From Brachypodium distachyon (Eukaryota > Streptophyta > Magnoliopsida > Poales > Poaceae): a DNA stretch of 64,000 nt. Of this stretch, positions 19,872-55,515 are shown piece by piece (the first letter of the stretch is position 1; the number at the start of each line of letters is the position of its first letter). The stretch covers positions 9,716,624 through 9,780,623 of the forward strand of contig NC_016134.3 in assembly GCF_000005505.3 (NCBI RefSeq), written 5' to 3'. The position numbers and the translations under genes are program-made. Under the pieces are notes generated by a model. It had not been told where the DNA came from and made no database searches. It was given only the letters and a program-made list of their open reading frames with translations.

Positions 19872-20990
19872 CAAATTAGTTTTTACTTTCAAATCAAACA
19901 AAGGAGTAGCTATAGCAAACTGAAAGAAATCTCATCTTATACTGCAATAGTTGCACTGGATGACTGGTTCCAAGGCTGCAGATACAATCACCCTGTTCAC
20001 TTAATAATTTATACAATGCAGAAATAAAATTTACATTTCCGTACTCTGATTTTTTGTTCCCCAAGACAAATCCCATGCTTCATTTGTGTGATGGATTCTC
20101 TCCTCTCCATGTTGCAAAAGGAAAAAATGATATGCGGAACATATACATAGGGGAAATGCGTGTGACCCATTTAGCATGAGTTGTTCAATTTGCAAGGAAG
20201 TTGAGTTACAAGATCATGCTTTTTAATGGTGGTTTATGAACAGATTGTAAGAATCAGAATCAGTAACTATATGGCTCTTTTATTTGTTATCTGTATTTCA
20301 CTTCATGGATGATGGCACCACAAGAAATGAGGAGGATAATAGAAGAATTTAAAATAAATGACATGAACAAGCTAAGATAAATTGTGGAGTCTATCAACAA
20401 ACGTAAAGAACAATTTAAAAATTATTGGTTGGGCGAACAATGGATCATGTACAATAAGAGATCCTAGTGGACTTAATATCTTTATTTGATTCCGTTAATA
20501 TCTTTAATTCTATAAAGAAAATTAGCTGCCCCTTCTCCTACCGCCAAAGAAAATATTCTTGCAAATTACTAAATAACCGACATAACCAAACTAAAATAAT
20601 TGTAGCATAAACAATAAACAGCAAAAAAGATGAATTTACATCACCTGTCAAGCCAACATAGCATACTGGCAGACCTAGCAGGACACTCATCTCATATATC
20701 ATTAATCATACCAGCTCCACCATCTGCACCACCAATTCCCCTGCCTACAAGCAAAATAAGTCCAATATACCAATAAAATTTCTAAGGACGAATGAGCGGG
20801 CATAACATTTTTTAGCAGAAGAAACAAACTAGACAATCAATACCTGGCAAACCATTAAGCTCATGAACAAAATTTACAAAAACAATAAGGAAAATTAACT
20901 GGATATAGTCTAAAGAAAGAAGTAAATTTGAGTTCTGTTACTCCCGCAATGTAGACATCAAGTATTACCTGCAATAAAAAAAATTGTGTA
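19872..20990. other. AT-rich intergenic, no gene seen
   Basis: AT-rich, with no family signature on either strand. Confidence 0.5.
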
Positions 20991-20994
20991 GGGC

Positions 20995-22108
20995 TAGTAG
21001 ACAAAGCTTTCATGCCTCTTGTGATCTATTTTAGAAATGTTTTTAAACTCTATCGAATCAAGTTGAATCATTAAATGACCGGATCCCGTAGATAGAAGAA
21101 TCACATTATTGTTCTCATCATAACTCAGTATTTGTGCATGTATTTCCCCCACGCACTATCTCGAAGATTGGAGCTCACCCAGTTTAATGGTTTTCAAAGC
21201 GTCCATGTTACAACGGCTTAATGGTTAGGCTTTCTTTCCCATAGCTGGATGTTTTGTTCTGAAGCAATAGCGAGACCAATATGACCGCCCTCTGTCCGAA
21301 GGATTTGGAATTCAGAGGGTAAGCTGTGACAGTAGGTAAAATAGGCATTGGCAGGCTTGTCGATCACGACAAGACTCTGCATTTCTAAATCAAACTTCAG
21401 AATTCCTCCTTCACAAAGCAACTAGAAAAACGCATAGCCAACAACTATGCTTGGCCTGTTTAAATTGATCCGGAAGCCTCCACGGAGATAACATTGACCC
21501 ACTCGCTGGATTCCGAGTTATAGATACAAGCAAAATGCAAGTCTGGAGGCATTGCCCACCACGGCTAGTTTGAACGGGCTATGGAGGCACGCACCGTGCA
21601 CGTGGCCAACTTCATCGTCGGCGCACACGACCGTGGTGGCTTTTCGAACGACGTAGTCTGTGTACCCAAGCGGAAGAGGAAAAGAAACCCGACGCTCATG
21701 GCTGGTGACGGGGTCCCACAGGAGGACCACTTGTCGCGACCAGTCGAGGAAGAGGGAGAGGCCATGGCGGCATCCAAGCAACTTCGAGCCATCGTCGAAA
21801 CCCCACGGCCCGAATAAGCGGGCGCCGTGAATGCGATTGGGCGGGTCCATCACGGGCACGAACGAGAGTGGGTAATTCCAGACACCTCGGAGGAAGAAAC
21901 CGAGCAGCGGGGGTTTCCGATGGCAGGCACGGAAGCGGCGGAGGAAGGGGGCGTCGAGGACGACGCGGCGCCAGCGCTTGGAGACGGCGACGGCTCGCAG
22001 AATTGACGACGGCTGCGGGGGCAGGCAGAGGAGGATCTCCTGCAGCAAGTCCTCGTCGTTCAGCGGGGTTTGCACCTCCGGGGAGGAGGGGCGGCGGCGA
22101 CGGACCAT
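20995..22108 (-). pseudogene. F-box pseudogene, copy 3
   Basis: The frame from ATG 22108 (MVRRRRPSSPEVQTPLNDED) has a good F-box (DLLQEILLCLPPQPSSILRA, then KRWRRVVLDAPFLRRFR) and an F-box-associated region (LGCRHGLSLFLDWSRQ, LLWDPVTSHERRVSFPLPLG, EVGHVHGACLHSPFKLAVV). Near 21540 the frame shifts; the true continuation reads HFACIYNSESSEWVNVISVE. Stops at about 21477 and 21419 break it again before LLCEGGILKFDLEMQSLVVI and IQLWERKPNH. Weak homology continues to about 21000 (NVILLSTGSGHLMIQLDSIE). It is therefore nearly full length but has three or more lesions. It forms the outer end of the left arm of the inverted duplication. Confidence 0.82.
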
Positions 22109-23121
22109 TTGGAGCTAGGGTTTGGTCTTGCTGGACTAGAGCTGAGCGCAAGTGGAAGGAAACACGCATTTGCAGAGCGCGGCTTGTAAAGGGGGCTTTG
22201 TCGAATTCGAGTCAAATTCAATGACAAAGATGTTTAGAACAGCATTGTAAAAGGAAATTAAAGAAAAGACATGGAAAAATCTAGATTTTTTTACGCATCC
22301 ATAGGAGAGGCGTGAAGAGAGGATAGGAAAAGGAAATGATGAAGAAAATGGAAAGAGGAACGCTGACCTCTTTTGGCGAACGACAACCAACAATGGCAAG
22401 GTCAGTTAAATTTTTTTGGATGTTTCTGAATTTGAGTCAAATTTAAAGAAAAATAATTCAGTGCCAAAGATGTTTACACGTTGAATATGCAGTGACAAAG
22501 ATGTTTAGAACAGCGTTGTCGGCACTTTGAAAATTCTCATGTCACACAAATGTGAGCAATTGTGAAGACTGAAGAGCTCGGGTTAGGACTGCTGGAGCAC
22601 AGAACTTGATGGATTTCAGTTCTCGCGAGTGCTGTTGTCCCTGCTCTTTGTAGCTCTAAATCTCAAAATGGCAGACCACATCAGCTTGACAGAGAAGCCC
22701 AGAAGATAAGAGGTCATGATTGTGCCTAGCAGACGAACACATGACCTCAATCCGACAACATTCTCAGTCCACAAAGTTGAACAGAAATTACTGCCACCTG
22801 GAGCTGTCCATGGTAGAAACGTTTTCTTATGAAACAGAACCATCGAAACATTCTCTATAGAAAACAGCATATGCATCGGGAACCGAAGTCGCAAACTGGT
22901 GTCGAGCGTCAAGTGAGGCTGCTTGATAATTTCTTACATACGATCCGGCTAATGATTATCAGAAAAAGGACATCTAGCAATTAACCTAATTTACTCATCT
23001 CATTCCAATCCTCCAGTTACTCCTGAGGGAACAAGCAAAACAGGGCACTTCAGTTTCTTCAGTGAGCAGTGCAAATCAAGTCTAACAAGCTTCTCATGTC
23101 TACTTGCTGATGCTGATCCAG
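22109..23121. other. Intergenic with a partial direct repeat
   Basis: No gene. The text ttgagtcaaatt...gacaaagatgtttagaacagc(a/g)ttgt occurs at about 22205-22246 and again, split, at about 22432-22520. The 3' untranslated region of the ankyrin-TPR gene should lie in the part next to 23122. Confidence 0.4.
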
Positions 23122-26100
23122 CTAATCTTGTGCGGGGCTACAGCGAGATATCTTCAAGGATTCCATGGCCTTCCTGCACAATTTAATTACAACAGTAAGT
23201 ACGATGTCTATAGACAAAGACAAGGATTTTGAGAAAGATCATGAAGTGGTTATTGCTGTCCACTATACCGTAACCCATCTTCCATCTCGACATTCCTTGG
23301 CTCCAATTTAAGGCCGTCAAGAAATGCACAAGATGCCTTTTCATAGTCCTGAAGACAAAAGGTTAGCGCATGCTACATCAAAAATGATTCCAACAGAAAA
23401 ATGCAGAACTTGTACGTCGAAAAGGTTTTCCCACTGAAAATGCAGAACTGATCTAAGCATCTTTCTTGCACCTTAAGTAACATTAGCGCAGTTCCTTCAC
23501 GATAGCAGGCCTTTGGCCAGCCAGGTCGGAGCATCCTGCAAACCTTGGCATCCTTCAAGGCCTTCTCCCCATTACCAAAGCGAAGCCAGCATAGGCTGCT
23601 ATTTGAGAGCAACGTTGCATTACTAGGGCCAAGGGGATTAAGTGCCATTGCCTACAACAAACAAACAAACAAACAGAAGAAGCATTACAACAATTCTGCA
23701 CATTGTGCTTAGATCACTGAAATTTACTCCCTTCGATCCATAATAAGTGAATCTATTACTAACACTTATTATGGATCGGAGGGAGTAATAAAACGTATGC
23801 AGTAAACACAAATCATCGATGACCAGATTAACTTGCATAAGCATGCCAAAGGATAACTGCTCGGCAAAGACATAACCTGCTCCTGGGTATACAAAATCTG
23901 AATCCACTGACAAATATGGCTCAAACAAAAATAAAACCCAACCGATACAGAGGTACAAAAATGACATGAGTGGTCCTATTAGCATGTTCGATACAACCAT
24001 GACATGAGATATTAATTGACATGCCATTGCATGCTGTGAGAAAGTTAGTTTTATTAACAGGATCCACCTTTGGACATTACAAGTTTGTCTAGTACGCACA
24101 TATCGACTGACATAAGTTGTTCATGGACTTTTGTACAATACAACAAAGTAGAAGAAAAACAGATTTCAAGGTAGTTCCGCAAATGATGTGAACCTAAGTT
24201 ACCCACATCAGGGTAACTAACTACAGAAGATGGCCAGGCATGGCTTGAAAGAATTAGGGTTTGGGGGATTGAGGGCTAGACATAGACTGGGTGAAGAGAA
24301 CCTTAACAATTTTTAGACTAGTTTACCCCTTCCTTCTTTGAAACCTCTTACTTAGACTAATCCTGATTTGAATATAACTTCTAGATTGACACGACTCGCC
24401 TAAAAGGAAACAATCTGGACAAAGATGCCTAGTAGGCTACTTATGCATGTGGAATCTACTAGCTAATACAATGGATCCTATCTCTAAACCAATTACGAAG
24501 GCCTTCTTCTATTATCCTTCCTGGACTTCAGCTTGGTCTCAACTTCCTGGATGCTTTGCAGATCGGCCGCAAGTATCTACTAGCCAATTCCATGGACCTT
24601 ATCTTTAAACCAATTATGAAACCATTCGTCTATATCCTTCCTGGACTTCAGCTTGGTGTCAACTTCCTGGATGCCTTGCAGTCTGGCCACCAGTATTAGT
24701 CTCACACTGCCTCCAGACGTATGCGACATTGCTACTGTGTGGCCTATGTCCAGAACAATGAATTGGGTGAAATGGATGCAACAGTATGAATCATTCTGGC
24801 ACTGATCCAACTGCATCATCATTTAAAGCATGAACTACGAGAGAGCATAATTTACATAGCACATGCCATTCCATGAAGGAAACAGACAAACAAGAGTAAA
24901 ATGCATTATAGGTCCTTGGACCTGTTCTGAGCGGTCAATTATTCTATAAACTTTAACAAGCAAGATGCAATCATATACCTCTTCGTAAATTCTTGCTGCA
25001 ACAAGATAATTCCCATCCTTGAATGCCTCATTTGCTTTTGATTTGGCACTAGCAAGCATAGCTTTCTGAAACGTCGAGAGCAATCAAATCAAATGAAATA
25101 GAAGTAGCACATGTATCCCTTTCCCACATGCTCAATAGAAACGATTAGAACTCATTATTTCTCCCTGAATCAACTCAATAGTTCTACCATTCACTAAGTG
25201 GCCATCAATATTTAATTAATATTAGACCACCTGTTTCCCCATATAATTATAACTAATTCTCCCTGAATAAACTCAATAGTTTTAGTACTCACTACAACAA
25301 CAATAAGAACTCTTGAACTTTAACTCTTTGGGACGAATCAATAATCACTCTTGAACGCCTCATGTGCTCTAAATTTGCACTAGAAAGCATCGGTTTACCA
25401 AACATTGAGAACAATAAATGATATAAAGATTCAGTACCACGCTTAATCCCTTCTGCACATGCTCAGTAGAAGCGATTATAAGTTCATAACTAGTTACTCC
25501 ATAAATCAAGGAAATATGTCAACTCAATAGTTACTTACACCACTTATGAAGTGGTTATGTTACCTGAATTTCTGAATGATTTTTTCTATCCAAATTGGTT
25601 AAAAATCAACATGACTAGTTTAGCACTTACAGTTGTCAAAAGAGTTCACGACACATAATTATCATCTTGTCAATACACAGGGATAACAATAACTACTACT
25701 GATGTTGCAGACTTGCATGCCACAAACTTAGCATGCAATGTGCCGTAAAAAAATCACATCAAAATGAATACGGAATTATAATAGAATAGATAAAGGTAAA
25801 TATTTAAATTGCTTTCAACCAAATCTTATTGCCCCAAATGACTTATCCTGTTCTGTTTGTATTTTTCTCCACTACCCCCCTTTTTTCCCTGTATAGTGGC
25901 GACTCTTCTAATAAATTATACTGTCAGAGCCTCACCTACAGTTTCCGGTCAACAAAAAATGACTTGGCGTGGAACACATGTGACATATTTTCGTTTCACC
26001 GGCCCAAAGCTAAAAAAGAGTGCAGCAGTACAATTGGCATACAACATTCACAATCAATCTAGTCCTTAGACAGCAATTGTAGTTCAATACAGTAAAAAGG

Positions 26101-29100
26101 GAGAGTGAAGTGTATGGTTTTAAGCACTTTTCTCAATTTACAATAATGAATTTCAAAAACATCAAATTACGGAAGTCTCCATCACAAAGCTAACACCAAA
26201 CATGCACACTCAAACTGTTTATATAAATGTAATAATGGTGTTCTAAATTATACCTTCTCTGGGCGCACTGATTTTACATGACTAATAATTCCATCAACAC
26301 TCCACTCACGTACACCAGGAATAAGAGAAGTGACTGGAAATAGGATCTCCACATCTTCACGCCTACCAGAACGTGCAGCAATTTCTATAGGAGCACGTCC
26401 CAACTGCCAAGATAACAAGCAGGATTAACTTCACTTAGTATTTGACAACACAAAATGACAAAGCTGGAGCATGCAAGCTATTACAAGCGTCGAGCATATG
26501 GTATAAAATGAAATATATGCTAAAGATTAGCATACCATTAACATTATCTGTTAAAGAACCAAGTAGTGATCTTATATTGTAACAATGAGCACATATAGCA
26601 TGTGATCTGTTGCTCCGGAGAGCAACCGCACTCCGCACGCAACACAAGAACGAATTGTTACTTTAGGCGATCATTAGGTGATAATACAATCCCAAGAACT
26701 TCCAAGATGAATCACATAAGCAATAACTCCCATATCTGCATTTTCTGCTTCATTTTTTCCTCCAAACTGTCAACACATTTGCATCCAACAATCCAATGAA
26801 TTCTTGGTAAGTTTACTTGTTTGTTCAAAGGAAACTCTAAGGTAAGTTCTTCCTATCTGCTAGATAGCCCATAGCCATCACATGCTTCTCCAGATAATCA
26901 AATAGAAATCACACTGAATTTCAAATGTAGCTACGTTGTTTCATGTAAGAAACAGCATTTTTTTTTTGTACTCTACTCTATACAGGATAAATCTAAGAAG
27001 ACTACCAAAACAGACCTGCAAAATAGAAAATCCATCAAAATAGTTGTCTTACAGTTTACAATTGAAGATGGAAAACCAATAATGTTGAACTGATTAATTA
27101 CTAAGATATGTCCTGTCCTGTTAGGAACGAAAGCATTCGTGTAGCAGCAAGGTACAACAGCTTACACTGTCAGGAACATTTGCATCTGCACCAGCCAGAA
27201 CTAAGCACTTCAGGATGTCAGTTGCGCCAGCAGTGGCAGCGATCATTAAGGGTGTCTCTTTACCAACACCATCCACATCAGCACCGGCCTAACAGTAAAA
27301 AGCTTACGTTATATGCTTCATCTGAACACACATACATTGCAATTCTTGATTGTTATGATCACATTAGGAAAAATTAAATAAGACAGTACAATAACTCCTT
27401 TCTACATTACAAGCTAAGTGCATGTGTGTTGCTACAGATTTTACAAAATTTTGTTTAAATGCTTGTGCCCTCATATTTCCCAATTTTGTGCTACTGTTAC
27501 AAAATGTAGATCAATCCAATCAACTGCTAACCAGAAGAATGTGACATGCAAACCTACCACATAAATGGATGGCAATTGCAGTGATTTCGTGGCAATCTAA
27601 GTAGTCTTGGTGGAGTGAATAGACAGCCACCAACTTAAACTTTTATAAGAGTGGAGAAGTACAGTAGCCTGTAAATTGATGTCTGAAGATGACATACCTC
27701 AAGCAGGAGTTGCACACATTTCAGTGAGTGTGCAATAGTAGCAAGAACAAGAGCTGTATAACCAGTACCACTCAAAGCTTTCTTATGCTGTCAAGAAATT
27801 AAGAAATAAAAATCCCATATAACTACAGTGAGCATAAACTTAAAGAAGGTTCCATATAACTACAGTGAGCATAAAACTTAAAGGGAGGCGTGAAGAACTA
27901 TAAGATAGATAGTGGATATAACCATGTCATTATGAGCAAAAGAACTTCTATAAAAACAATGACGACAAAATTAACAAAGACAAGTAACAATAGTAAATGA
28001 ATTACTCTCTCATGCTATACATGAAAAGTTAATGAATCCTCCTCAATCGTCTAGGATGTCCCCGGCCACCCCCAAAATGCATATGAAAGAAAGGCAGATC
28101 AAAATAATGAGTTTCCAGCCCAACAAAGTTAATGGCCATACAAGAGCAAAACTCAATCTTAACAGTCTTGTGCATTAAAGGTCAGGCACTAAAAAAGATA
28201 TAATAACACTGCAAAGCAAGATTTTACATGAACAAGCTAGAGTGGTACTGCATCGAATCATTGCCCAAGCCAGTTAAGTTTTCAACTTATCAGACTGTCA
28301 TGCAAGGACACTAGGAACTAAAAGTGCTGTGTACGAGTCGGATTATACATACGCTAGAAAACAGAAACATGTGTACACCTAGGTCTCTGGACTCCACCTG
28401 GTTGCTGGTGAACATGTGTGGTGAAACAGGAAAATTTCACATGGAAAAGTAGACTACAGGATGATCTGCAGATCAGAGAAAGTGGGATTTATTTGAAAAA
28501 GAGCACCAGTGTTGCTCATAATACCGAGGCACAATATTGACGACTGACGAGACTATGCTTAAGAACTGGAGCAGGTGAAGAGTCGGACTCCACTAGATTA
28601 AGGTTTAAACGTTAGAAGGAACAAAAAACACAAGTATAACACACAAAGTTCACATAAAAAAACAAATAGGATAAAGATGCTGGACAGGAAAAAAGTCAAA
28701 TAACAAACTGTTATTGCAGATTTTACCATTCTAAATAGCAAGAAAGTTCATAAAAAAAGGACAATATGGGGCTGGTGCTTACATCTGCATGGTGGTCCAA
28801 CAAAACCTTAAGAATATCATCCCGCCCATGAGTAGCAGCATAATGCAGTACAGTCCCACCATGATTTAGTGTATCAGGGTGAGCTCCTTTGGAGAGTAAG
28901 AGCTCAACCATTCCAACATCTCCTGGATACAAAATACAAGATATATCATGAGTCAACCATAGATACTTTGTTGTAAATTAGAAGACATACAGCAAGCCAC
29001 GAGATACAGAGTTAATGATCAAGGCTTGGGAATTGATGGAGCAGGCCGAATTTGGACACGAGAGCATGTTTAAACTTTTGGAACCTTGACAAACTAAATT

Positions 29101-30054
29101 GACAATGGCATGGAAAAAAGAAAAGGCCTGCTAGTTGAAGAACTTTCTACAAAACAGCATGCCACTATAAAGAATATCCAATCAGTACTGCTTTACTCCA
29201 TCCCACTGATATATGGGCCCCCACACGTCACACATGAATAAGAAACACTTAAAAAAGATGAGCATGCGTAGTGGACAGATGGATGCTACCTTGCGAGGCG
29301 GCGAAATGGAGCGGGGTATACCCATCGGCGTCGAGCATCTCTGTATCAGCACCTTGCTCAAGGAAGTAACGCGCCAACTCCATATTCTGACGGGCAAGGG
29401 CGGCATCCAGAGGCGTTGTGCCTGTCAGGGAGGGGACACCATGGTTAACAATCAGAAAAGCTTTAAATTCAGCACACAAACACAAAAACAGCCTATGAAA
29501 CTCCACGCCAGTGTCTAATCAACGAGGACCGAGGATGATTGTGCAGCATGCGCGCGAACGAGAGAGCTGAGGAAAACATTTGGGGAAAAAAGAGGAGGGC
29601 TTTGCATTGCAGTTGCAGAAGCAGGCAGTACGGCATACCGTGGGGGCCGAGGACATCGATGTCCATCCGGACGTGCTCGACGAGGTAGCGGCAGACGGGG
29701 AGGCTCCCGCCGAGCGCGGCGCGGTGGAGGAGGCCCATGCCGAAGCCGTCCCGGACGGCCTCCAGCTTCTCCGCCAGGCGGCGGCCCTCCGCGCCCCTCC
29801 CCAGCACCCTCACCGCCTCTGAAACCAATCCGCACCAAAAATTCTTCAGCGACCCAAGGGAAGGAAGGGAGAAAGAATCGCGGGTTAGGCGAGGGCGTAG
29901 TACTCTTGACGGTGCGGAGGTCGCCTTCGAAGGCGGCCTGGAGGAAGCCGAGGTCGAAGTCGGGGTTGGCGATGAGGCTCGGGTCCCAGTCTGGGAGGGC
30001 GGCGCCGGCGCCGCCGGGGTGGTGGTGGAGAGGCGGATGCGGTAGGGTCGCCAT
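23122..30054 (-). CDS. Ankyrin repeat-TPR protein, left copy
   Basis: Eleven exons on the minus strand: 30054-29904, 29818-29639, 29421-29290, 28922-28783, 27787-27698, 27288-27166, 26403-26254, 25065-24979, 23651-23472, 23348-23269 and 23173-23122. All junctions are GT-AG and in phase, giving 454 residues with no lesion. Start MATLPHPPLHHHPGGAG is preferred over an in-frame upstream ATG at 30171 because the paralog's homology begins here. Residues ~75-300 form about six ankyrin repeats (for example GYTPLHFAASQG, GGTVLHYAATHGRDD, KETPLMIAATAGATD). Residues ~323-440 form a TPR region (KANEAFKDGNYLVAARIYEE, NATLLSNSSLCWLRFG, KACYREGTALMLL). Ankyrin-TPR proteins are protein-protein adaptors; the exact partner is unknown. 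The gene is divergently paired with the intact paralog at 31028-37749. Confidence 0.9.
23727..23785. mobile_element. Short Stowaway MITE in intron 8
   Basis: A 59-bp near-perfect hairpin, CTCCCTTCGATCCATAATAA against its inverted partner, is flanked by TA on both sides. It lies in intron 8 of the left ankyrin-TPR gene and has no counterpart in the right copy. Confidence 0.85.
24455..24694. repeat. Tandem duplication, 120-bp unit, two copies
   Basis: 24455-24574 and 24575-24694 match closely (tctactagc(t/c)aat, ccttcctggacttcagcttg, aacttcctggatgc(t/c)ttgca). It lies in intron 8 of the left ankyrin-TPR gene. A related single copy occurs inverted near 36480-36550 in intron 8 of the right gene. 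Confidence 0.85.
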
Positions 30055-31027
30055 GGCCGCGGCGCGAGGGGAGGGGAGGTAGGGTTTTGGGGGACGAGGG
30101 CGGGAAGGCAGCGAGCGAGAAAAAGAAGACAAAGGAATGGGAATGGAAGCCGAGTTTGTTGCTGGTCTCACTTTACTTTTTTTTTTTTGACTCCTGTTCT
30201 CCGAGGAACAGATCCCGAGGCTCCGATAAATATCTATCGGACACGAATATATTCATGTTCAATATATTTAAAAAGGAAATCATATTGGAGGTGCATGAGA
30301 ACTTTGACGCATATAAATTTGAGAACGTTGCATCGTTATCACCAAACTTGTCTTGCGGAATCATTTCGGGTCCAGCATAATTTCAATGAGGTGGCGTTCG
30401 GAATCTTTCCGCGATCCATTTTTTTTAAATCCATCGCACAGTCTACTCTCTCTCCCGCGTAATCAAGTTCATTTTTTCTAATTAAAAAAGCTCGCAAAGG
30501 TCGTTCTTTCATTCATCAGCTCTTGACTCCTCATCTCCCATGCGACAACCTTGAGGCGAACCGTGCGGAGATTATCATCGGCGGAAAACGGATCGTCGAC
30601 GGCCGCGAGCATAGCAATTTTTTTGAACGAAAACCATTCTTTTAACTAGAGTTTATTAAATCCAAGACACTTATTACGAATCGGATGAAATAAAGCACAG
30701 TAATATAAAATTACATCACTGATTTCTTAAATACGGAGTATGAGGAAAAAATGTGTTGCGGATTACTTGTTATTGATGCAAACTACATCTCGAAATGCTT
30801 ACCACCCTGTGAAAAATAAAAAAAACAATGCGTGCACGGTCCAAAAGAAAAAAACGAAACACGTGGTTGATGATAATCCCAAGAGAATAAAAAAATGCAA
30901 AAGCTACACGAACTTCGGCTTCCATTCGCATTCCTTTGTCTTCTTCTTCCTCCTCCTCCGCTCCCTCCCTCTTCCCGCCCTCTTCCTCCAAACCCCAGCC
31001 CAAAACCCTACCTCCCTCCGGCGGGCC
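30055..31027. promoter_or_regulatory. Bidirectional promoter region of the ankyrin-TPR pair
   Basis: The start codons of the two paralogs face away from each other across 973 bp. The segment near 30170-30185 has a T-run, and a part around 30660-30735 looks like a Stowaway remnant (cttattacgaatcgg ... tacggagta). CT-rich leader sequence at 30925-31020 precedes the right gene. This is the centre of the inverted duplication. Shared control is inferred from position only. Confidence 0.5.
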
Positions 31028-34000
31028 ATGGCGCCGCAGCCGCCGCTCCAACCACCGGCCGCCTTCGACGACTACGGCCTCCCTCCCTGTGACCCCACCC
31101 TCACCTCCTACTTCGACCAGGGCTTCCTCAAGGCCGCCTACGACGGCGACCTCAGCGACGTCAGGAGTACGCCGCAATCGCCATCCCCCCCTACACTCTT
31201 CTGCTGCCGTTGTTAACTCATCGGCGATTTCTTTCTTTTCCAGAGGGGGCGAAGGTGGTGGGGCGGGGCTTGGAAGGCCGCCGCCTCGCCGAGAGGCTGG
31301 GCGCCGTCAGGGACGGGATCGGCATGGGCCTGCTCCACTCCGCCGCGCTCGGCGGCAGCCTCCCGGTCTGCCGCTTCCTCGTCGAGGACCTCCGCCTCGA
31401 CATCGACGCCGCCGGCCCGCACGGTGCGTGCGTGCGTCGTCCGTACACCTGCCAAAACCAAAACCTTCTCCTTTTTCTGCTCTCTCACTCACGCGCACGA
31501 TCGATAACCCTGGTTGTAACTGCAGTGGGTAGCTATGTTTGTTTCCTTCCTCCGATGCGGCTGGATTAATTTGTGCGTGTGCGCTCAGTGAGCAGCTCTG
31601 CTTATCAGTGCTTAATTTGGTGTGCCCCCTGACAGGCGAAACACCTCTGACCTTTGCGATGGGCATTCAGAACGTGGCTATGGTGCGTTACATTCTTGAG
31701 CAAGGTGCTGATCCAGAGAAGGCCAACGCCAAAGGGAGTACTCCTCTCCATTTCGCCACTGGAATAGGTATGTCACGATCTCTACTCTACGCATAACTGT
31801 CTTTCCAAGGTGTTCTTTTTGTTCGCGTGTACTGCCGCGTGAGGAGGAGTGATGACCCCATATATCAGTGAGACGGCAAGCAACAATTTTTTGACTGGAT
31901 ATGCCCTATATAGTGCCAAATTTCTGAAGAAAGGGAGTAAGGTGTTGGCTGTATGGGAAAGTTCTTCCTTTCACCCCCATAGGCATCATATCATGGAGGA
32001 AAAGAACTAGCAAGCCTTTTATTTTTCTACGACACTGTTAATTTAATATAACCATGTCCAGAAAGTTTAAAAAATGCTCTTTTCTCCAAATTCGGTGTAC
32101 TCGATCAATTAACATGCCACACAACTATTGGCTTCTATTTTGGTATGTCTTCTAATTATTTAGACGTTATTTCTCTAATATCATATTAGCATATGTTACA
32201 TAGGCTGACACTTAACAAAAATCGCTGTGGAGACAAGGAGCTACAACAAATAATCTATAGCCAACTCGTGATATATCCTGTATATTTTATCCAGGAAACC
32301 TTGAAATCGTAGAGCTCTTACTTTCCAATGGAGCTTGTGTCAATGGATTAAGTCTTGGTGGGACAGCATTACATGCTGCTGTCCATGATGGGCGGGATGA
32401 TATTGTGAAGGTTTTGCTGGACAACCATGCAGATGTAAGTGATTCCCATCTTTTCTTTTTTCTGAAACTTGTTTGTGATTCACCCTATTAAGAAATTTTA
32501 TCATATTTCAGTTTTTTCATCTGGTTGGTTTTGTCACATTGCACTTCTGCTTTTATTCCTTCTAGCTGTAAGCTGTAATCATGTACCACCTGCTTCAGTT
32601 TTCAAACCCTAGTGTAGTCATCAATATTTTGCCTTGGTAACATGAGCAATGTTGTTGATCTTTTCTCCAAACCAATCCCATTTTCTCTAATCTACAGATC
32701 AACTTGTAGTGTCCTTTTGAGAGCTGAATTTTCCTGTTTCACTGCACATGTTCCGTGGAGTCGTGAGACCTGACTGTATACATGCTTTGTTTTCTAGCAC
32801 ATGCATAAACTGACCGTATAAACTTTACACGATGCTTCTAGTTTCTTCCATCCTTGCATGATGTAATCTGACAAGTGGAACTGGACGTGCTTGTAGCAAT
32901 GTTATAATGTATTGCTATAATGCGTTCATGTGTAAGGTCTTGCCTGTGCAGCGTTCCTATATTTTTATTAGTGGTTGACCGTTAGTGCACAACGGATGTT
33001 GAGGTCTAGCTCTATCTCTTGTATGGCCATGGAGTTCCTGGGCTGGAAACTCATTGTTATCCTTTTTTATCTGTCTTCCTTTCCTACGCATTTTTAGCAG
33101 TGGTCATGGACTTCCCAGACATATCATGAGGATTACATCAACTTATGTAGATATTATGATAAGCTAATTCATTACTTTTGCCATGTTTGTGTATGCTAAT
33201 TTTGTTATTTCAGCTTTTTGACAAAGCTTTTACTCATGTTGTCATGGTTATATCTAATATATATTCTGTTTATACTTTAGTAATATGGGATTACTAATTT
33301 CTTAATTTCTCAACAGCATAAGATAACTTTGAGTGGTACTGGTTATACAGCTCTTGTTATTGCTACTATGGTGGGCTCACTGAAATGTGTGAAGCTCCTG
33401 CTTGAGGTATGTCATCCTCATACATCGACTTACAGGTTACTGTAAACATGTACAAAGAGGACTTACTGAAACTTCACTGAATTTTTGTAATTCTCCTAAA
33501 AATGATTATCACAATCACAAATTGCAACTTATATGTGTTCATATGAAAACATATAACCCAGGTTTTGTAATCTTAGGCCGGTGCTGATGTGGATGGCAAA
33601 TCTAATGAGACGCCCTTAATGTTTGCTGCCAGTACTGGTGGCTTAACTGACATCCTGAAGTGCTTAGTCCTGGCTGGTGCAGATGCTAATGTTACTGACA
33701 GTGTAAGCTGTTGTGCCTTGCTGCTACATGCATGCTTTCGTCCCTAACAGGAGATATCTCGGCACTCCATAGTCAAATTGTAAACTGGAAGACAACTATT
33801 CTGATGGATTCGCTATTTAGTAGTCTGTTTTTTGTAGTTTTGTTAGATTTACCATGGTAGAGTACAATGAAATAAATGTTGTTTGTCACATGAAAAAACA
33901 AAGCTACATTTGAAATTCAGTATGTGGTTCTATTTGATTATTTGGAGAAACATGTGATGGCTATAGGCTGTCTACTAGACAGGAAGAACTTACTTTCGAG

Positions 34001-37000
34001 TTTCACTTCGATATTTTTTTTTACAATTAAGCTTATCAAGGGCTTCTTTGGATGGTTGGATGCAAATTTGTTGACAGTTTGGAGGAAAAAATGAAGTAGA
34101 AATTGCAAATAGGAAGAATTTACCTTAGAGTTTCACTTCGAACAAATTTTTGTACAATTAACTTAACAAGAACTTCTCTGGATTGTTAATGCAAATTTGT
34201 TGACCGTTTGGAGGAAAAATGAATCAGAAATTGCAAATATGAGACTTATTGCTATTTGCTTATATGATTCATCCTGGAAGTTCTTAGGATAGCATTATCA
34301 ATACCACCTAATGATCTCCTAAAGTAACAATTTGTTCTTGTATTGTGGTTGCTGTCCTGGACAACAAATCAAATGATTTATGTGCTCATCACTTGCAGGA
34401 TAAGAGACACTACTTGGTTCTTTAACAAATACTCCCTCCGTCCTGTATTAAATGTCGCAACTTTGTCTAGATACGCATGTATCTAGACATGTTTTAGTGT
34501 GTGGGCACATGTAGACAAAGTTGTGACAGTTAATATGGTACGGAGGGAGTATTTAATTTCGTACCATATCTATGTGCTCAACGCTTGTCTAGATAGGTTG
34601 CATGCTCCAGCTTTGTCATTTTCTGTTGTCAAATACTAAGTAAAGTTAATTCTGCTTGTTATCTTGGCAGTTAGGACGTGCTCCTATAGAAATTGCTGCA
34701 CGTTCTGGTAGGCGTAAAGATGTGGAGATCCTATTTCCGGTCACTTCACGTATTCCTAGTATATGTGACTGGAGTGTTGATGGAATTATTAGTCATGTAA
34801 AATCAGTGTGCCCTCAGAAGGTATAATTAGAACACCATTATTACATTTATATAAATGTTTTGAGTGTGCATGTTTGCTGCTAGCCTGGTGATGGAGATTT
34901 CCCTAATATGATGTTTCTGAAATTCATTGTTGTAAGTTGTAACTTGAGAAAAGTGCTTAAACCCATGCACTTCATTGTGCCTTTTCCCTCTATTGAATTA
35001 CAATTGCTGGCCGGGGACTATATTGCTCGTGAATGTTGTATGCCAATTGTACTGCTTCACTTTTTTTTTAGCTTTGAGCCGTTGAAATCAAAATATGTCA
35101 CAAGTGTTCCGCTCTAAGTGATTTGGGAGCAAGAAGATTTTGTTGAAAGCATTTTGATTTCTTACCTTTATCTGCTCTGTTAAGTTTGTTAACTCCATCT
35201 TCATTTTGACGTGACTTTTTGATGGCACATTGGACATTGCATGCAACGTGGGTAGTAGTTTTGTTGTTACCCCCTGTGTATCAGCAAGACGATGATCATG
35301 TGCTATGAACTCCTCTGATAATTATAACCGTTTCATAAATGGTATAAAGGAACCATTGTGTTGGCATATTCCGTTGATTGAGGGAGAAACTAGTTATAAA
35401 CTATAATCCTTCCTACTGAGCATGTGCATAAGGGATTTAATGTGTGCTGATCTTCTTCTTATTTGATTGTTCTCAATGTTTCAGAAAGCAATGCTTGCTA
35501 CTGCAAAATTTAAAGCACATGAGGCGTTCAAGAATGGGAACTATCTTGTTGCAGCAGGAATTTACAAAGAGGTATACTAAACTTGTATCAAAGTTCATAT
35601 TACAACCCCTAACTCCACTTTGGTTCATGGTACCCACCTAAACTATGAAAACCGTTCGGAATACCCCCCCCCCCTCCCCCCACGACCAGTTAGATTGACC
35701 GGTTTTAACACTGGTTTTCACTGATTTGTTGTCATGTCACCTAGTCCACACCATATGACCTCTTCCTCTCTAGCTCATTTCCTGGAGTCAATGGGGGTGG
35801 GGGTTGCAATGTGGCGGCGCAGAGAGCAGCAGAGCAGAGTATGGAGAAGCAGACAGTGGCGAGCGGCAGCTGACGGAGAGGCAGTGGCTGTGGCTCCTTA
35901 CAGCACGGCGCACGGGGCTGTTTGTGAGACACATAGATGCAGAGAGACACGGGAGAGAAGGGGGAAGCGGGTAGGATATTTGGGTTGGGCTCACATGCAA
36001 AGAAATATATGTCGTGGATTAGGTAACGTGGCACCACATCAGTGAAAACCGGAGTCAAAACCGATCAATCTGATTGAGGGGGGCATTCCAGACGGTTTTC
36101 ACAGTTTAAGGGGCTATTTTGAACCAAAGTGAAGTTGAGGGTTGTAACATGAACTTTGGTACAACTTTAAGGTGGTAATGTGGACTTATCTCTTTTCTGT
36201 TTCATTCGTGGAATGTCGTTTGCTTTGGCAAATATGCTTTCTGCGCACTTCGTAGATATGCTAATGTTGCAGAGCAGATAGAGATTGCATATATGTGATG
36301 TCTCTGACACCTTCCTGTTACTGTATTATTTCTGTAATCTCTTGTAGTGCATGCTTTGTTCGATGGTGCAGTTGGATCGGTGGCAGAACAATTCGTGCCA
36401 CACAACTCATTGTTATGGACGATAGACCACACAACAGCACATTTGTCTAGTGCAGGATGGGACCAATACTAGTGACCAGGTTGCTAGGCATCTAGGAAGA
36501 AGTTGACACCATCATGAACAGTAGAAGAATGGTTTCATAATCGGTTTAGAGATATAGTCTGCGGAATTACGAAGTATAGGTATTAGATTCCTTATGTGTT
36601 AGTACTCTATTAGGCCTCCTTGTCCTGGTTGATTCCCTTTTTTAGGCGAGTCCTGTCAATCAGAAGTCAGGTTCGAGTCAGAAGTAATCTAGGTAGTCCT
36701 TATAAATGGATGATCGTGTGTGTCGTTTGAAAGATGGAAGGCGATAAATTAGTCTATTTCGCATTTAAAATTCTCTCGTTCCTGTCTATGTCTATGTATA
36801 GCATCCTTATAAATGGATGATCTTCTGTGTTTAGTTACCCTGATGCACACTTATTTTCACATCATTTGTTTTGCTACCTTGAAATGAGTCTTTCTTGTAC
36901 CTTGTTATGTTATGAAAAAGTTTGTAAACAGCTTAGCTTTAGTCGGTACCTGTGTTCTCAGCAATCTTGTAATGTCCAAGGGTGGATCCAATTAATAAGA

Positions 37001-37749
37001 TTATGACTTGGCTAAGCACTTTTCTTTTTACATGCTTACGCAAGTTAATATTGTCATTGATGACTTGTGTTTACTGCTTACATTTGATTGAATTTCAATT
37101 AGTTCTAGTGGTCCCTGATTGCAACAAATTCTTGTTGGCAACTCTAAGAACGATGTGCAGAATTGTGATAATGATTCTTCTGCATGTTGCTTGTAGGCAG
37201 TGGAACTTGACCCTCACAATGCAACTTTGCTTGCGAATAGTAGCCTATGCTTTCTTCGCTTCGGTGATGGGGTACAGGCCTTGAAGGATGCTCAAGCTTG
37301 CAGGATGATGCGACCTGGGTGGTCAAAGGCCTGCTATCGTGAAGGAACTGCCCTAATGTTACTGAAGGTGCGGTGGTGCGGTTAAGATATCTAGATCACT
37401 CCTGCATTTTCTGTAGGAAAACAGTTTCAATGTGCAAGTTCTGCATGTAGAGGCAAATCGTTTCTTGATGTACACGTAACAATTTTTTGTCTTCAGGAGT
37501 ATGGAAAGGCATCTGGTGCATTTCTTGATGGTCTTAAATTGGAGCCAGGGAATGTCGAGATCGAAGATGGATTACGGTATCCTCCATCATCCCTTTTGGC
37601 TAAATTCAAGTCTAGTGTACAGTGATAACCTCAATCTCAATTATCTATTTATCTTCCACAATTCCTTGTCGCAATGATAGCCTTCATAATTTACCATCCG
37701 AATTGAAATGCGCAGGGAGGCCATGAAAGCCTTGAAGATGTCCTCGTAG
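31028..37749 (+). CDS. Ankyrin repeat-TPR protein, right copy
   Basis: Eleven exons: 31028-31166, 31244-31423, 31636-31767, 32295-32434, 33317-33406, 33577-33702, 34671-34820, 35485-35571, 37197-37367, 37497-37576 and 37716-37749 (stop TAG). All are GT-AG and in phase, encoding 442 residues. Exons 2, 3, 4, 5, 7, 8 and 10 have exactly the same length as in the left copy. Ankyrin repeats cover residues ~70-295 (GMGLLHSAALGGSLPVCRFL, GGTALHAAVHDGRDD, NETPLMFAASTGGLTD). The TPR part covers ~320-435 (KAHEAFKNGNYLVAAGIYKE, VELDPHNATLLANSSLCFLR, ACYREGTALMLL). In exon 5, 23 of 30 residues match the left copy; in exon 7, 42 of 50. A MITE-like element begins just after the exon 8 donor. It is likely a cytosolic adaptor; substrates are unknown. 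Confidence 0.9.
34432..34549. mobile_element. Stowaway MITE in intron 6
   Basis: CTCCCTCCGTCCTGTATTAA pairs with its inverted partner at 34530-34549, with TA on each side. It sits in intron 6 of the right ankyrin-TPR gene and is absent from the left one. Confidence 0.85.
35577..36165. mobile_element. DNA element with ~95-bp inverted ends in intron 8
   Basis: The left arm (from about 35577: aaacttgtatcaaagttcat) and right arm (reverse complement from about 36165: aaagttgtaccaaagttcat) match over about 95 bp, including ACTTTGGTTCA and ACTGTGAAAACCGT-like blocks. The interior has a C-run (35661-35681) and a purine-rich stretch without a clear gene. The target duplication is not resolved. It starts only a few bases past the exon 8 donor of the right ankyrin-TPR gene. 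Confidence 0.7.
36330..36560 (+). other. Conserved intron 8 segment, shared by both paralogs
   Basis: This stretch matches, inverted, 24590-24820 in intron 8 of the left gene (gatg(g/a)tgcagttggatc, gacaccat/gacaccaa, gaatggtttcataat). On the left it stays open as a frame ending TKLKSRKDIDEWFHNWFKDK. It predates the duplication and may be an old exon or gene fragment; the right copy has lost the frame. Confidence 0.5.
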
Positions 37750-38635
37750 TATGCCTGAGTGAGATTAGCTGGATCGGCACCAGCAAGTAGATCGATGTGA
37801 GGAACTTGTATGTACTTTCCTGATGTGCACTGCTCACCGAAGAAACAGAGATGCCCTGTTTTTCTGTTCCGCTTAGGGCGTAACTGAAGGCTTTTGAATG
37901 AGACAAGTTTGTTAGGTTAACTGTCGAATGCCCTTTTTCTTATCATCATTCGCTGGATCATGAGAAATTTTGAAGTCCCTCGCCTCACCAGTTGCTCGAG
38001 ACCTTATTGCGACCGCAATTTCCAGCGCAAAAGCTCTTATGTATAGAGGAGAATTTTATGTTCCGTTGGTATGGAAAATGTTTCTACCGTAGACAGCTCC
38101 TCCAGGCGGGTGTAATGTCTTTACAACCTCCGAACTGAGAATATTGTACATCTGCTAGGTGTGGATGGAGTGAATGCCTCTGGTTGATGAGTTTTTTTTT
38201 TGTTTGAAATGTTTGGTTCATGAATTTTGGATGCAAGAGAAGCTGCCCATTCTCTTCCATTTCTTTTTATTTCATCGAACGAAAAATAACCTCAATGATC
38301 TTCCCAATTCCTTGTCGTGATGGTCTTTCACTTAGAGCAGCCATTAGCCATCACATTTACTGTTGGATCTCGAAGCTGCACAGGACACGCTTAGCTGGAT
38401 CACCATCAGCAAGTAGATATGAGAAACAGAGGTGCCCTGTTTTGCACTTCTCACTGAAGATTTTGTAAGTATACTTGATTTGCACTTCTCACTGAAGAAA
38501 CGGAGGTGCGCTGTTTTGCTGTCCTGTAGGCGTACCTGAAGACTTTTAACGAGATGGGTGGGTTATGTTAATCGGTAGAAGCCCTTTTTCTAATCATCAT
38601 CGGTCGGTCCGTGAAAAACTTTGGACAAGGCAGAG
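37650..38635 (+). repeat. Degenerate duplication of the ankyrin-TPR 3' end
   Basis: 37650-37980 (last exon and 3' region) is echoed at about 38290-38635. Shared strings include caattccttgtcg, ttagctggatc, caccagcaagtagat/catcagcaagtagat, gaagaaac(a/g)gag(a/g)tg and ccctttttct(t/a)atcatcat. The second copy has lost the coding exon. Confidence 0.65.
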
Positions 38636-38689
38636 GTTGGTTTCAGACCAAAAGTAGGTGGTGCTTTCAATCAAAGCTTAGTTCCAATA

Positions 38690-39260
38690 GAGAAAAAAAG
38701 AAAAGAAAGAAGCTAGAGGTCGGAATTGACTCGGAAAAAAAAGGAAAGAAAGAAGCTTGGTCCCAAATGACTAGAATTAACTCAGAAAAAGGAAAGGGGA
38801 TACTTGCCAACTAGATGTGTGCATCACCGAGTTCAGCTCAATTTTGACTCGAAAACAAAGGAAAGAAAGAAGATTTGTCTGAATCAACTACACAATCATC
38901 CTCAGGAAAGAAAGAACTTGGTCGGAATAAACCACATGGTCATCTGCCAACTAGTTGTCTCCAGTGTTGAATTTATCTCAAAATCGACTCGAAAAAAGGA
39001 AAGAAAGAAGTTTGGTCGGAATCGACCTTAGGGTCCAACTAGATGTGTGCATCACCTAGTTGTCCCACCGTTAAATTCATCCCAAAATCGTCTCCAAAAA
39101 AGGAAAGAAAGAATTTGGTCGGAATCAACCACATGGTCATCTGCCAACTAGTTGTGTCCACTGTTGAATTTATCTCAAAATCGACTCGGAAAAAGGAAGA
39201 AAGAAGTTTGGTCGGAATCGACCTCAGGGTCATCGACCAACTAGCTATGCCCATCACCAA
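38690..39260 (+). repeat. Purine-rich minisatellite upstream of F-box copy 4
   Basis: A core of GACTCGAAAAAAGGAAAGAA followed by AGTTTGGTCGGAATCGACC recurs about six times (near 38727, 38848, 38902, 38987, 39090 and 39183). Two longer units of about 200 bp, starting near 38905 and 39108, share the phrase CACATGGTCATCTGCCAACT. It ends some 180 bp before the F-box start codon. Confidence 0.8.
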
Positions 39261-40399
39261 ATTGAGTTCAAAGTCGACTCATATCCATCACCACTGACAG
39301 GAGAAAAAGACCAGAATACCCTCCAACTAAATCTCCAAGACACACACTCTTTGCCCTGCACAGTCTAGTCGAGCCAGCTGAGATTTCCCCTCTTTTCACT
39401 CCACTCAACCCATAAGGCCAACCCTAGCTCCGATGACCCACCATCGACGCCCCTTCCCCCCAGCGGCAGCAACGCAACACCCGCTAGACGACGAGGACCT
39501 CCTGATGGAGATCCTCCTCCGCCTCCCACCGCAACCGTCCTCCCTCCTGCGCGCGTTGGTGCCACACTGTCCGTGATGCTCGCTTCGTCCGCCTCTTCCG
39601 CGACCATCATCGAAAAATGCCGCTCCTCGGCGTCTTCATGAAGCAACCAGGTGCGCCTTGCGTCTTCTCTTCCACACTGGATCCACCCAACCGCATCCCT
39701 GCCACACGCTTCTGCCCGCCGAAGAACCTCGCCAGCCCGGGCTGGGCGTTCCGAGGCTGCCGCAATGGGCTTGCGATCTTCCTCAACTGGGTGCAACGAG
39801 AGGTCTACTTGTGGGACCCCATCTCTAACCAGCAGCGTCGCATTTCTTTCCCATTTCCACTCAGGTTCACTGATGGTGCACCAAAGATCGTGCTAAATGC
39901 TGGGATGGTGTGCGCCGACAACCACGCTGACCATTTACATGGTGCCTGCTTGCTGAGCCCGTTCAAATTTGTTGTGGTGTGCAACAACATGAATCAAGAC
40001 CATATATATGCCTGCCTCTTTGAATCGGGATCTGGCATGTGGGGAGATATCATAACTGTGGAGGCTACAATGGCCGATCCGACGATCGATCCAACCAGCC
40101 CTAGCATCTTCGTTGGGAACAAACTTTGTTGGTTGCTTTGTGAAGGTGATATCCTTCAATTTGATTTGGAAAGTCAGAGTCTTTCTGTGATCAGGAAGCC
40201 GTTTGAAGCCTGTTTTATGGATCCTTTATCCCCACATTGCTTCCAAATCATGCGGACACGGGATAATGGAATTGGTCTGGTAATTCTTTTAGGACCGAAT
40301 ATTCAAATATGGGAGTGGAAGCCAGAATATGAAACGTCATGGGTGATGCGAAAAACCATCCAACTGGGTGACCTACTTACGCCAAGATTGTTCATAGAG

Positions 40400-40404
40400 A
40401 ATGG
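40400..40404. repeat. 5-bp target duplication of solo LTR, left
   Basis: AATGG immediately before TGTTGG, repeated at 41765-41769. Confidence 0.9.
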
Positions 40405-41764
40405 TGTTGGAGATATGCCCTAGAGGCAATCATGTGATGATGTTATTTCCTATGTATTCATGAGTTATTGTTATTGTCCTTGAACATCATCATTGATATG
40501 TATCAATAAATACGTGATTTGTTTATGAGACTATGTATTCTATGATGTTGTTCTAATGGTCCTTGGTCATTGAGGTTATGCGGACACATAACCTAGACTA
40601 GCAATGTGAATCAGTATGATGACTATGTTTCACAAGTCATAGGGCGTGTTGCCGATTGATAGCATGGACTTGACAATGAGATTGTTGAGTCGGACAGACC
40701 CGCACTGAGACACAACGAGATGATTGTCATTTGTTAGTCTCAAGTACGATGTATATGCCAGTCCTAGACCTGAGGTCATCGCATGAGCTTGGGATGTGAA
40801 TCGGCCTACTTAGGGGTTGCCAAATGCTACTCCGTAACTGGGTGGTTATAAAGGTAGTTTTCGGGTTTGCTGAGAAGCATGCTGCGAGTCATGGTTGATC
40901 AAGATTGGATTTGCCCCTCCTGTTCGAAGAGATATCTCTGGGCCCTCTCGAGTGATCAGATTCAGAAAGCATGGCCATGCAACTTGGGTTAAGTGCTAAC
41001 CCGTTCGGGAATCTGTATCACAGGAACGAGAGAGACTCGAGCTATCCACAAGGATGACAAGCACTCGTCTTGAGCTCGACACACATATCGTGAGGCAAAA
41101 GGAATGTTGCATATGACACATTGTATGGTTCGTCAACATACCTTGTGGTTACTCGGGAGTTGGCACGTGCTGCTAGGCGCCGCTACCAACTATCGACTCT
41201 AGTCGGTGCCAGTGGACGAGTAAGGTGTTACTCGGACCCGCAGTTCGAGCTCGTAGTCGTGTCCGTCTGACCGTGAACCTATAGGGTCGCACTATTAAGG
41301 GGATGGGACCGAATTGGATCGGATCCAACTCGTATCGGGCTTAGACTCCTAACGGGCCTCAAGTGTTGAAGCCCACCAGGGAGGTCTACATAAGTGGAGG
41401 AGGCGTACCCGGTTAGGGTTACACCATTACACCAGTCCAGACGCGAGTTAGACTCGGCCGTCACACCTCCACGCCCAAAGCCTTGCGATCAGATCTAGTA
41501 GTCCGCCGCACGGAGTTCCTCCCTGTACGTGTGGATACCTCGGAGGCGCTGCACCTGCGGCGCTTGGACGAACTGTTCGTGGGATCGGAGAGGAGGAGCA
41601 GGCTGTTCAACTACTCGGCATCGACGCGCTACATCGACTCTACTTCCGCTACGGGTCTGCGCGTCTAGTGGTAATCTCGTGATCCATTATCTACAGCATT
41701 GATCCGGACGGAAGCGGTAGAAATTTTTATTTTGTGCTAGCGTAGCATACCGCGTTCCCCAACA
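40405..41764 (+). mobile_element. Copia-type solo LTR
   Basis: The 1,360-bp unit begins TGTTGGAGATATGCCCTAGA and ends GCGTTCCCCAACA, so it has a 6-bp TGTTGG/CCAACA inverted terminus. It is flanked by the perfect 5-bp duplication AATGG. There is no internal gag/pol and no second LTR nearby, so recombination between two LTRs has removed the rest. The start resembles BARE/WIS/Angela LTRs of the Triticeae. Small frames inside have no coding meaning. Confidence 0.9.
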
Positions 41765-41769
41765 AATGG
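41765..41769. repeat. 5-bp target duplication of solo LTR, right
   Basis: AATGG, identical to 40400-40404. Confidence 0.9.
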
Positions 41770-42340
41770 AAATGTGTGGAGACGTGGGTACAATGAGGAA
41801 ACAAATTTTATCTTCCTGGCTACGGACATGGGCGATTTCATGGTCCAATTGAATACAATGCAGCTTAGAAGTATTGCTACAATAGATCAAAAGAAGAGTT
41901 GGACCTGTTATACGTACGGAAATTTCTATACAACAGGTATTCTCATCTCTACAATGTAGAAGTAAGAATATCAAATTATTTTGTGTGTGTTTGCTGATTT
42001 TTTTTTTCACGAGGCTAATAGTTGGCAAGATATTGAGAATAAATTGAGCAGTTTGTTTGTTTGCCGGGTTGGTTATATTTTACGTATTATTTTTGTAACT
42101 GTGTTAAAGGTAGAACAAAAAATAATTTTAGCAAGTACTGCCTAGTCAATGCAATGTACATAAAACATGTTATACCTGCTCATTTGTCATTTCATTGGAA
42201 ATGGTATTAGTATATTAAACTTTTTTTGGCTTGTAGGCAGGGGGGTTGGTGGTGGAAATGGTGAAGATGATATGTCTAATGATACATTAGATGACTTTCT
42301 CAAAAGATTTCCTAATGTGCTAAGGTCGTTGAACAGGTGA

Positions 42341-49122: not shown

Positions 49123-49566
49123 GATCTCCTTATGTGATATGTTAGCTAGCCAGGTGGTGTAAATTTATCTCTGCTATGTGTATATTCTTTGCTTGTTGAA
49201 CTTAACTGCAAATATATATATGCTCCAAATGTTTTTGGAAGTTCATAATTTATTTAGTAACTTAGATCACTATTTTCTTCAGAAGCAGGCCAATATGGAT
49301 TGAAAATGGTGATCGACAAGACAACAAAACAACCTATGTGTCTATTTATGTATTCCCCTCTTCGGTAGGACTAATTAAAAACATCACTAAAGATATGTAT
49401 ATAGGTCTAAATTAGGGACAATACATAATATAATTATTATTTAACATTACAACCGGACCAAATATGTACATTGTATTCTATACTTGAACAGTTCATTTCT
49501 GGAGCTCAAATGTCCCATGTACAGTTGTACACATTAGTATTCCATTTGCCAATATGAGCTGTACAT
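49123..49566. other. Non-coding, duplicated from 42341 onward
   Basis: This diverged copy of 42341-42830 runs up to the hAT-like insertion. No gene. Confidence 0.55.

Positions 49567-52015: not shown

Positions 52016-55515
<3,500 letters not shown>

Follow-up and report, generated by a model that had tools for sequence, protein, structure and literature searches.

A probably old and partly homogenised inverted pair of ankyrin-TPR/F-box gene blocks in Brachypodium distachyon

Local duplication of gene blocks together with fast turnover of F-box genes is known in grasses, where copying is reported to be repeated on one chromosome and some of the copies to be degraded (PMC3719486). Sex-chromosome palindromes are reported to combine mirror-image arms with gene conversion between the arms (PMC3403216, PMC7023750). 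Among the carboxylate-clamp TPR proteins, whose consensus for the tails of Hsp90 and Hsp70 is K-N-N-K-R, AtTPR10, with about 455 residues, is reported to combine ankyrin repeats with a TPR domain of three motifs (PMC2939883). Here, we describe a locus of Brachypodium distachyon that resembles each of these systems in the respect just named: a block made of an ankyrin-TPR gene and an F-box gene, present as an inverted pair in a stretch of 64,000 nucleotides (the window) on contig NC_016134.3, presumably chromosome 4 (assembly GCF_000005505.3, positions 9,716,624 to 9,780,623, forward strand). Positions below are those of the window, and values in Mb are those of the contig. The inverted pair of two-gene blocks is real, old and partly homogenised, and the kind of event is an ordinary local duplication. 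Literature searches on LOC100822981 and on the names Bradi4g10090/10100 gave no match, and those on inverted ankyrin/F-box duplication and, for Brachypodium, on conversion and on copies in inverted or tandem order gave no title on this locus among the matches listed.

The two arms are called the left block (L) and the right block (R), related blocks elsewhere on the contig L', R' and R'', and the F-box remnants of the left block, the right block and a third copy FL, FR and FT. A sequence-only reading had claimed the mirror-image order F-box(-), ankyrin-TPR(-), ankyrin-TPR(+), F-box(+) between 20,995 and 42,340, and self-comparison bears this order out. Between 19.8-30.25 kb and 30.85-43.7 kb there are 20 mirror-orientation matches with a summed alignment length of 7,693, and no opposite-orientation match; each of ten shuffles of the left arm also gave none. 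Softer scoring places the outer limit of the shared homology at 19,913/43,574 and the limit towards the centre at about 30,207/30,877, and the inverted duplication thus stands but is somewhat wider than had been claimed (about 19.9-43.6 kb). The arms are collinear in mirror order across the whole block, and the reverse-diagonal signal is present outside the ankyrin-TPR exons, in the 5' untranslated region (UTR), the introns, the 3'UTR, the F-box remnants and the 3' flanks. The 0.6-1.3 kb that separate the ankyrin-TPR 3'UTR from the start of the F-box gave no match between the arms. The start codons of the two ankyrin-TPR genes lie head to head, 973 bp apart, and the central spacer has only short matches genome-wide. 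Misassembly of the arms is unlikely, since at least a quarter of sites differ between them over most of their length.

19913..30207, minus strand: left block L (ankyrin-TPR, then F-box remnant, then 3' flank; limits are those common with R)
30208..30876: central spacer, about 670 bp, in which the arms have no detected homology
30877..43574, plus strand: right block R (ankyrin-TPR, then F-box remnant, then 3' flank)
23122..30054, minus strand: ankyrin-TPR gene L, BRADI_4g10090v3, 11 exons, 454 aa, open
L exons 1-6, high to low, minus strand: 30054-29904, 29818-29639, 29421-29290, 28922-28783, 27787-27698, 27288-27166
L exons 7-11, high to low, minus strand: 26403-26254, 25065-24979, 23651-23472, 23348-23269, 23173-23122
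25346..25558, minus strand: second copy, in tandem, of the exon 8 region of L, adjoining the working exon 8; apparently dead and apparently without a usable acceptor
31028..37749, plus strand: ankyrin-TPR gene R, LOC100822981, 11 exons, 442 aa, open
R exons 1-6, plus strand: 31028-31166, 31244-31423, 31636-31767, 32295-32434, 33317-33406, 33577-33702
R exons 7-11, plus strand: 34671-34820, 35485-35571, 37197-37367, 37497-37576, 37716-37749
34427..34554: intron 6 of R, Stowaway-like element that is missing in L and in R' (the 13.79 Mb copy)
23724..23788: intron 8 of L, Stowaway-like element that is missing in R and L'

Gene models agree with the earlier claims that seven of the eleven exons match in length and that both ankyrin-TPR frames are open; the remaining exons differ by multiples of three. 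Identity between the R model and the annotated LOC100822981 is 100%, and the L model departs from BRADI_4g10090v3 solely by 4 residues at one acceptor; both are B. distachyon entries. Both proteins score above the Pfam cut-offs for Ank_2 (R 235.3, L 204 bits; cut-off 27.3) and TPR_2 (R 31.2, L 29.5 bits; cut-off 27). The ratio of nonsynonymous to synonymous divergence (Ka/Ks) of the pair is about 0.65 overall, which indicates mild constraint. The claim that the Stowaway elements are not common to both arms also holds, one being confined to each arm. By sequence, the TPR domain is Hop-like in an alignment to Hop made with L. At the clamp positions Lys, Asn, Asn, Lys and Arg, L has all five residues and R four, with His at the first Asn. 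That position is His in 20 and Gln in 4 of 24 pooid relatives (two of which lack the TPR end), and Arg in five outgroups. Judging from these residues, the kept proteins are perhaps co-chaperones of Hsp90/Hsp70 acting through the TPR domain.

Searches of the own genome and the reading of two regions yielded at least three further copies of the block on the same contig, partial or rearranged.

9.9212-9.9253 Mb, plus strand: L', ankyrin-TPR 3' part, then F-box; about 82% like L in two long matches
9.9328-9.9405 Mb, plus strand: R'', ankyrin-TPR remnants, then right-type F-box; about 80-85% in the downstream half
13.781-13.797 Mb: R', right-type, with the ankyrin-TPR body inverted relative to its own 3'UTR and F-box
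45704..46159, minus strand: MCAfunc-domain open frame, located after the right block and before FT and matched (76%) at 9.9624 Mb

The order of ankyrin-TPR then F-box on one strand is common to L, R, L' and R'', and both L' and R'' are without 5' parts. Near 9.92-9.94 Mb, about 160-200 kb away, the left-type and right-type blocks lie in direct order; block-to-block orientation is not fixed in this family. A mobile-element origin of the block was also considered, as the L-R, R-R' and L-L' matches initially looked as if they shared one end point (about 19,913/43,575). It was dropped after five ends had been aligned and compared further outward, where the L-L' match continues for about 775 bp, the R'-R'' match for about 640 bp, and only R stops. 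The homology of L to L' runs outward to about 19,140, past the limit common with R, and that of R breaks off at the start of a Stowaway-like end (judged by eye, with no second arm reported).

Both F-box copies of the pair had been described as broken and mutually homologous, which was confirmed, and their gaps are not common to each other. The earlier inventory stopped at two copies and overlooked a third, equally broken one.

20819..22129, minus strand: F-box remnant FL, which has a gap of 5 bp against both other copies and one of 13 bp against FR; the aligned frame contains a TAG
39414..41977, plus strand: F-box remnant FR, which lacks 17 bp in its F-box region and carries an insertion of 1,360 bp
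40405..41764: the insertion in FR, missing in R' and R''; its ends are TG...CA, and the 5-bp target AATGG is duplicated
47450..48796, plus strand: third F-box remnant FT, without an ankyrin-TPR partner and in direct orientation with FR; a gap of 11 bp shifts its frame

The insertion in FR looks like a solo long terminal repeat, presumably of a Copia-type element. The reading frame through the gene is interrupted in FL, FR and FT alike. The F-box domain (Pfam PF00646/PF12937) scores 23.6 bits in FL and 31.7 in FT (cut-off 20.5), and the FR piece has only a beta-propeller domain in the Pfam scan. The 3' flank of FT (48904-49566) is common to FR and, over a shorter reach, to FL; a 228-aa protein is 98% identical to the later part of FT. 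Of the ten copies of this F-box kind that were examined, three lie in the window and seven on the rest of the contig (further matches at 9.929, 9.932 and 9.935 Mb are outside the count), and none is open throughout, all being interrupted or fragmentary. The unequal outcome that the sequence-only reading had singled out, two ankyrin-TPR genes kept and two F-box genes lost, is real, but the F-box loss is not special to this pair. Trees of 60 of 120 listed proteins with the three window F-boxes, and of 13 proteins with the ten copies, make the FL-type and FR-type sisters with FT outside (support 100/95 and 96/92, respectively), although in the second tree the two alternative groupings are not clearly rejected (p-AU 0.052, 0.103).

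Two side observations concern the surroundings of these remnants. Upstream of FR, 38904-39280 holds short tandem repeats with spacings of about 93 and 197 bp, partly common to the 13.79 Mb copy. Around L', at 9.919-9.932 Mb of the contig, there are more right-type F-box fragments, at least four, which are about 77-80% like FR and lie in both orientations.

How old is the pair relative to other grasses? A 49-row protein tree was made from R, L and 47 proteins hand-picked from 120 listed, with isoforms, short rows and remote rows excluded. Trees of exon segments used 29 of those proteins with R and L, with rows less than 60% filled removed per segment (29-31 rows remain); a second segment analysis added R' and, for exons 8-11, also L'. 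The core pooid relatives form two clades in the 49-row tree, A (97/97) and B (87/88). In wheat, a clade-B gene (VPH35_072445) and a clade-A gene (072446) carry adjacent locus tags, as do 011476 (clade A) and 011477 (clade B) in fescue; genes of the two clades lie three tags apart in Lolium multiflorum and occur in runs in Puccinellia. Eight proteins of other genera rank above R as matches of L, and eight above L as matches of R. For exons 1-6, R and R' group with clade A (support 87/85), L groups with clade B (74/57 with R' included, 53/41 without), and the approximately unbiased (AU) test rejects a clade of R and L (p-AU 0.022; 0.036 with R' added), as it does for exons 1-4 (p-AU 0.029). In three segments the test also rejects a single clade made up of R, L and A (p-AU 0.0095, 0.0065, 0.025). 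These trees and protein rankings suggest that the duplication predates the split of Brachypodium from the core pooids (wheat, oat, ryegrass), which we hold to be likely.

The partial homogenisation concerns one stretch of the block.

33648..35247, plus strand: probable conversion tract of R, reaching from exon 6 into intron 7, about 1.6 kb, unusually like L
25700..27220, minus strand: counterpart of the tract in L, ends approximate

Noncoding identity of the arms per 250-bp window is 75-97% at 33.6-35.6 kb and 49-76% in alignable windows elsewhere. With R' as third copy and badly aligned sites removed (3,497 of 3,748 kept), differences private to L amount to 0.074 per site inside 33,648-35,247 and 0.196 elsewhere, and this is the lowest segment (block-permutation p 0.0005). 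Along the block they go from 0.201 per site (30.85-33.45 kb) to 0.098 (33.45-35.1 kb) and then back up to 0.179, and the R-R' differences over the same three stretches are 0.088, 0.076 and 0.090. A segment at 35,021-35,202 in the first scan (p 0.001) was set aside as a presumed alignment artefact at the end of an R-R' block. Within the tract, L is 0.145 from R and 0.139 from R'; since these are about equal, the exchange would precede the R/R' split. In a tree of exon 7 by itself (50 columns), R as well as L falls in clade A (95/83), and because exon 7 of L is thus of clade-A type, L is the suggested recipient. The Stowaway-like element at 34,427-34,554, missing in L and R', was inserted later. 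Gene conversion of right-type sequence into L is a well-supported explanation of the tract, its direction being read from exon 7.

Several observations weigh against parts of this account and have to be set against its rivals. One concerns whether the two genes were duplicated together. Synonymous divergence (Ks), the comparison suggested in the sequence-only reading, is 0.28 overall for the ankyrin-TPR pair (exons 1-4 0.34, exons 5-8 0.16, exons 9-11 0.37) and 0.95 (0.74-1.26) for FL-FR, a gap that by itself would count against a joint origin. An F-box pair older than the ankyrin-TPR pair, merely adjoining it, would explain this gap, and also the 0.6-1.3 kb without homology that separates the two genes and the distances of FT to FL and FR, which are no larger than that between FL and FR. 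The ankyrin-TPR remnant of R'' is no nearer R than L (0.343, 0.331). The younger pairs provide a calibration. Over alignable sites, Jukes-Cantor distances for L-R, L-L' and R-R' are 0.269, 0.112 and 0.103 in the ankyrin-TPR 3' part, 0.430, 0.187 and 0.205 in the F-box, and 0.335, 0.126 and 0.109 in the F-box 3' flank. The F-box diverges 1.6-2.0 times faster in every pair (1.7 and 2.0 times in the two younger ones), and the old/young ratios are similar (ankyrin-TPR 2.4-2.6, F-box 2.1-2.3), so that the gap in Ks is read as a rate effect and an older F-box pair is not needed. As FL-type and FR-type are also sisters (96/92) and L' and R'' hold both genes in unchanged order, we consider an older F-box pair quite improbable; the relative ages of the two pairs agree roughly. 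A duplication specific to the Brachypodium lineage, with the split affinities to A and B as noise, has somewhat more in its favour. The full-length 49-row tree joins R and L, weakly (71/67), the introns are alignable, and Ks is modest, the 0.34-0.37 outside the tract (with wide intervals) being presumably low for a pair that predates the Brachypodium-wheat split. Outside exons 1-6 the AU tests fail to reject R+L, both for exons 1-4 plus 8-11 (p-AU 0.088; 0.119 with R'), which put L in B and R beside B, and for exons 8-11 (0.51, 0.295), which recover neither A+R nor B+L (p-AU against them 0.057-0.136). Exons 1-4 place R beside part of clade B rather than in A, and the residues diagnostic of A or B per exon (20 columns) are suggestive only, many clade-B states being the outgroup state. 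However, this late origin has to face the rejections of R+L for exons 1-6 and 1-4, the proteins of other genera that match R and L better than these match each other, and the neighbouring clade-A and clade-B genes of wheat and fescue, and we regard it as unlikely while keeping it in view.

The likeness of the arms in the tract could also come from selection on intron sequence. R-R' divergence is itself slightly lower there (0.081 vs 0.124; scan z -2.76), and the contrast for L weakens after rate correction (Fisher p 0.012; 0.0036 in the first scan). The fall specific to L is nevertheless larger (0.098 vs 0.201 per site), L comes about equally close to R' and R, and exon 7 of L is of clade-A type; selection is therefore the least credible of the alternatives weighed here. 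The mirror order itself is much harder to assign. The sequence-only reading called the locus a palindromic gene duplication, and the duplication of a two-gene block stands while the palindromic mechanism does not follow, since the direct order of the related blocks near 9.92-9.94 Mb lets a later inversion explain the mirror equally well. A single palindromic duplication, with the direct order as a later rearrangement, would agree with the collinearity of the arms across the entire block, and the loss of 5' parts in L' and R'' is what a deletion spanning the former mirror centre would leave; against it are the sister cluster in direct order, the inverted body of R', which shows that inversions do occur in this block family, and a centre at which no breakpoint signature was seen. 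We give this origin a real chance, though clearly less than an even one. Direct tandem duplication followed by inversion of the left (or right) block falls just short of even. It accounts for the order of L' and R'', and the orientation of the MCAfunc fragment relative to the right-type block, identical at both places, suggests that L is the block that differs. Yet nothing at hand polarises the change, and the distance between R'' and R somewhat exceeds that between L' and L (0.184 vs 0.126, 3' flank), so that one copying event for the second cluster is not required.

Taken together, local block duplication followed by later copying, conversion and F-box decay is probably the best explanation of the locus. 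An ancestral block, an 11-exon ankyrin-TPR gene followed by an F-box gene on the same strand, as the homology and order of the copies show, would have been duplicated locally, probably before Brachypodium separated from wheat, oat and ryegrass, a timing that has moderate support. The descendants L and R now stand head to head around the 670-bp spacer, with a mirror order that may stem from the duplication itself or from a later inversion. Blocks of the left and of the right type in turn gave rise to new copies at about 9.92-9.94 and 13.79 Mb, with further rearrangement. Between the first duplication and the R/R' split, conversion would have replaced about 1.6 kb of L with right-type sequence. 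Both ankyrin-TPR genes of the window have stayed open and the examined F-box copies have decayed, presumably as members of a fast birth-and-death family. A more far-reaching possibility, to which we attach little probability, is that the head-to-head pair is tens of millions of years old and has been kept as a pair across cool-season grasses, sharing a short promoter and exchanging central exons; L would then be a mosaic, with outer parts of one clade and exon 7 of the other, alone among the examined pooid copies in having a complete clamp.

The rest of the window contains a LINE-like element at 10759-16016 (DUF4283, zinc knuckle, endonuclease and reverse transcriptase), a SWIM zinc-finger open frame at 16594-17055 with another open frame to 17640, and pieces of a DEAD/helicase-C gene at 52404-54623 (minus strand). 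We assume that 16594-17640 is a Mutator-like or FAR1-type remnant and that the helicase pieces are RecQ-like.

Because younger copies on the same contig act as clocks, this well-preserved locus allows the ages of two adjoining duplicated genes to be separated from exchange between the inverted copies, from inversion that recurred and from the loss of genes on one side only. It also calls for caution, as a present mirror order is no proof of palindromic origin and raw Ks misleads where adjacent genes evolve at unequal rates. Compared with the carboxylate-clamp proteins as described (PMC2939883), R has His, and its pooid relatives His or Gln, at the first Asn; AtTPR10 itself was compared by description. 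In contrast to the sex-chromosome palindromes (PMC3403216, PMC7023750), the arms here are only about 60-76% alike outside the 1.6-kb tract and the coding exons, and there is no sign of whole-arm upkeep. From the local block duplications of grasses (PMC3719486), the locus shows no difference in kind; what distinguishes it is that the F-box travels with one ankyrin-TPR gene and is broken in every examined copy.

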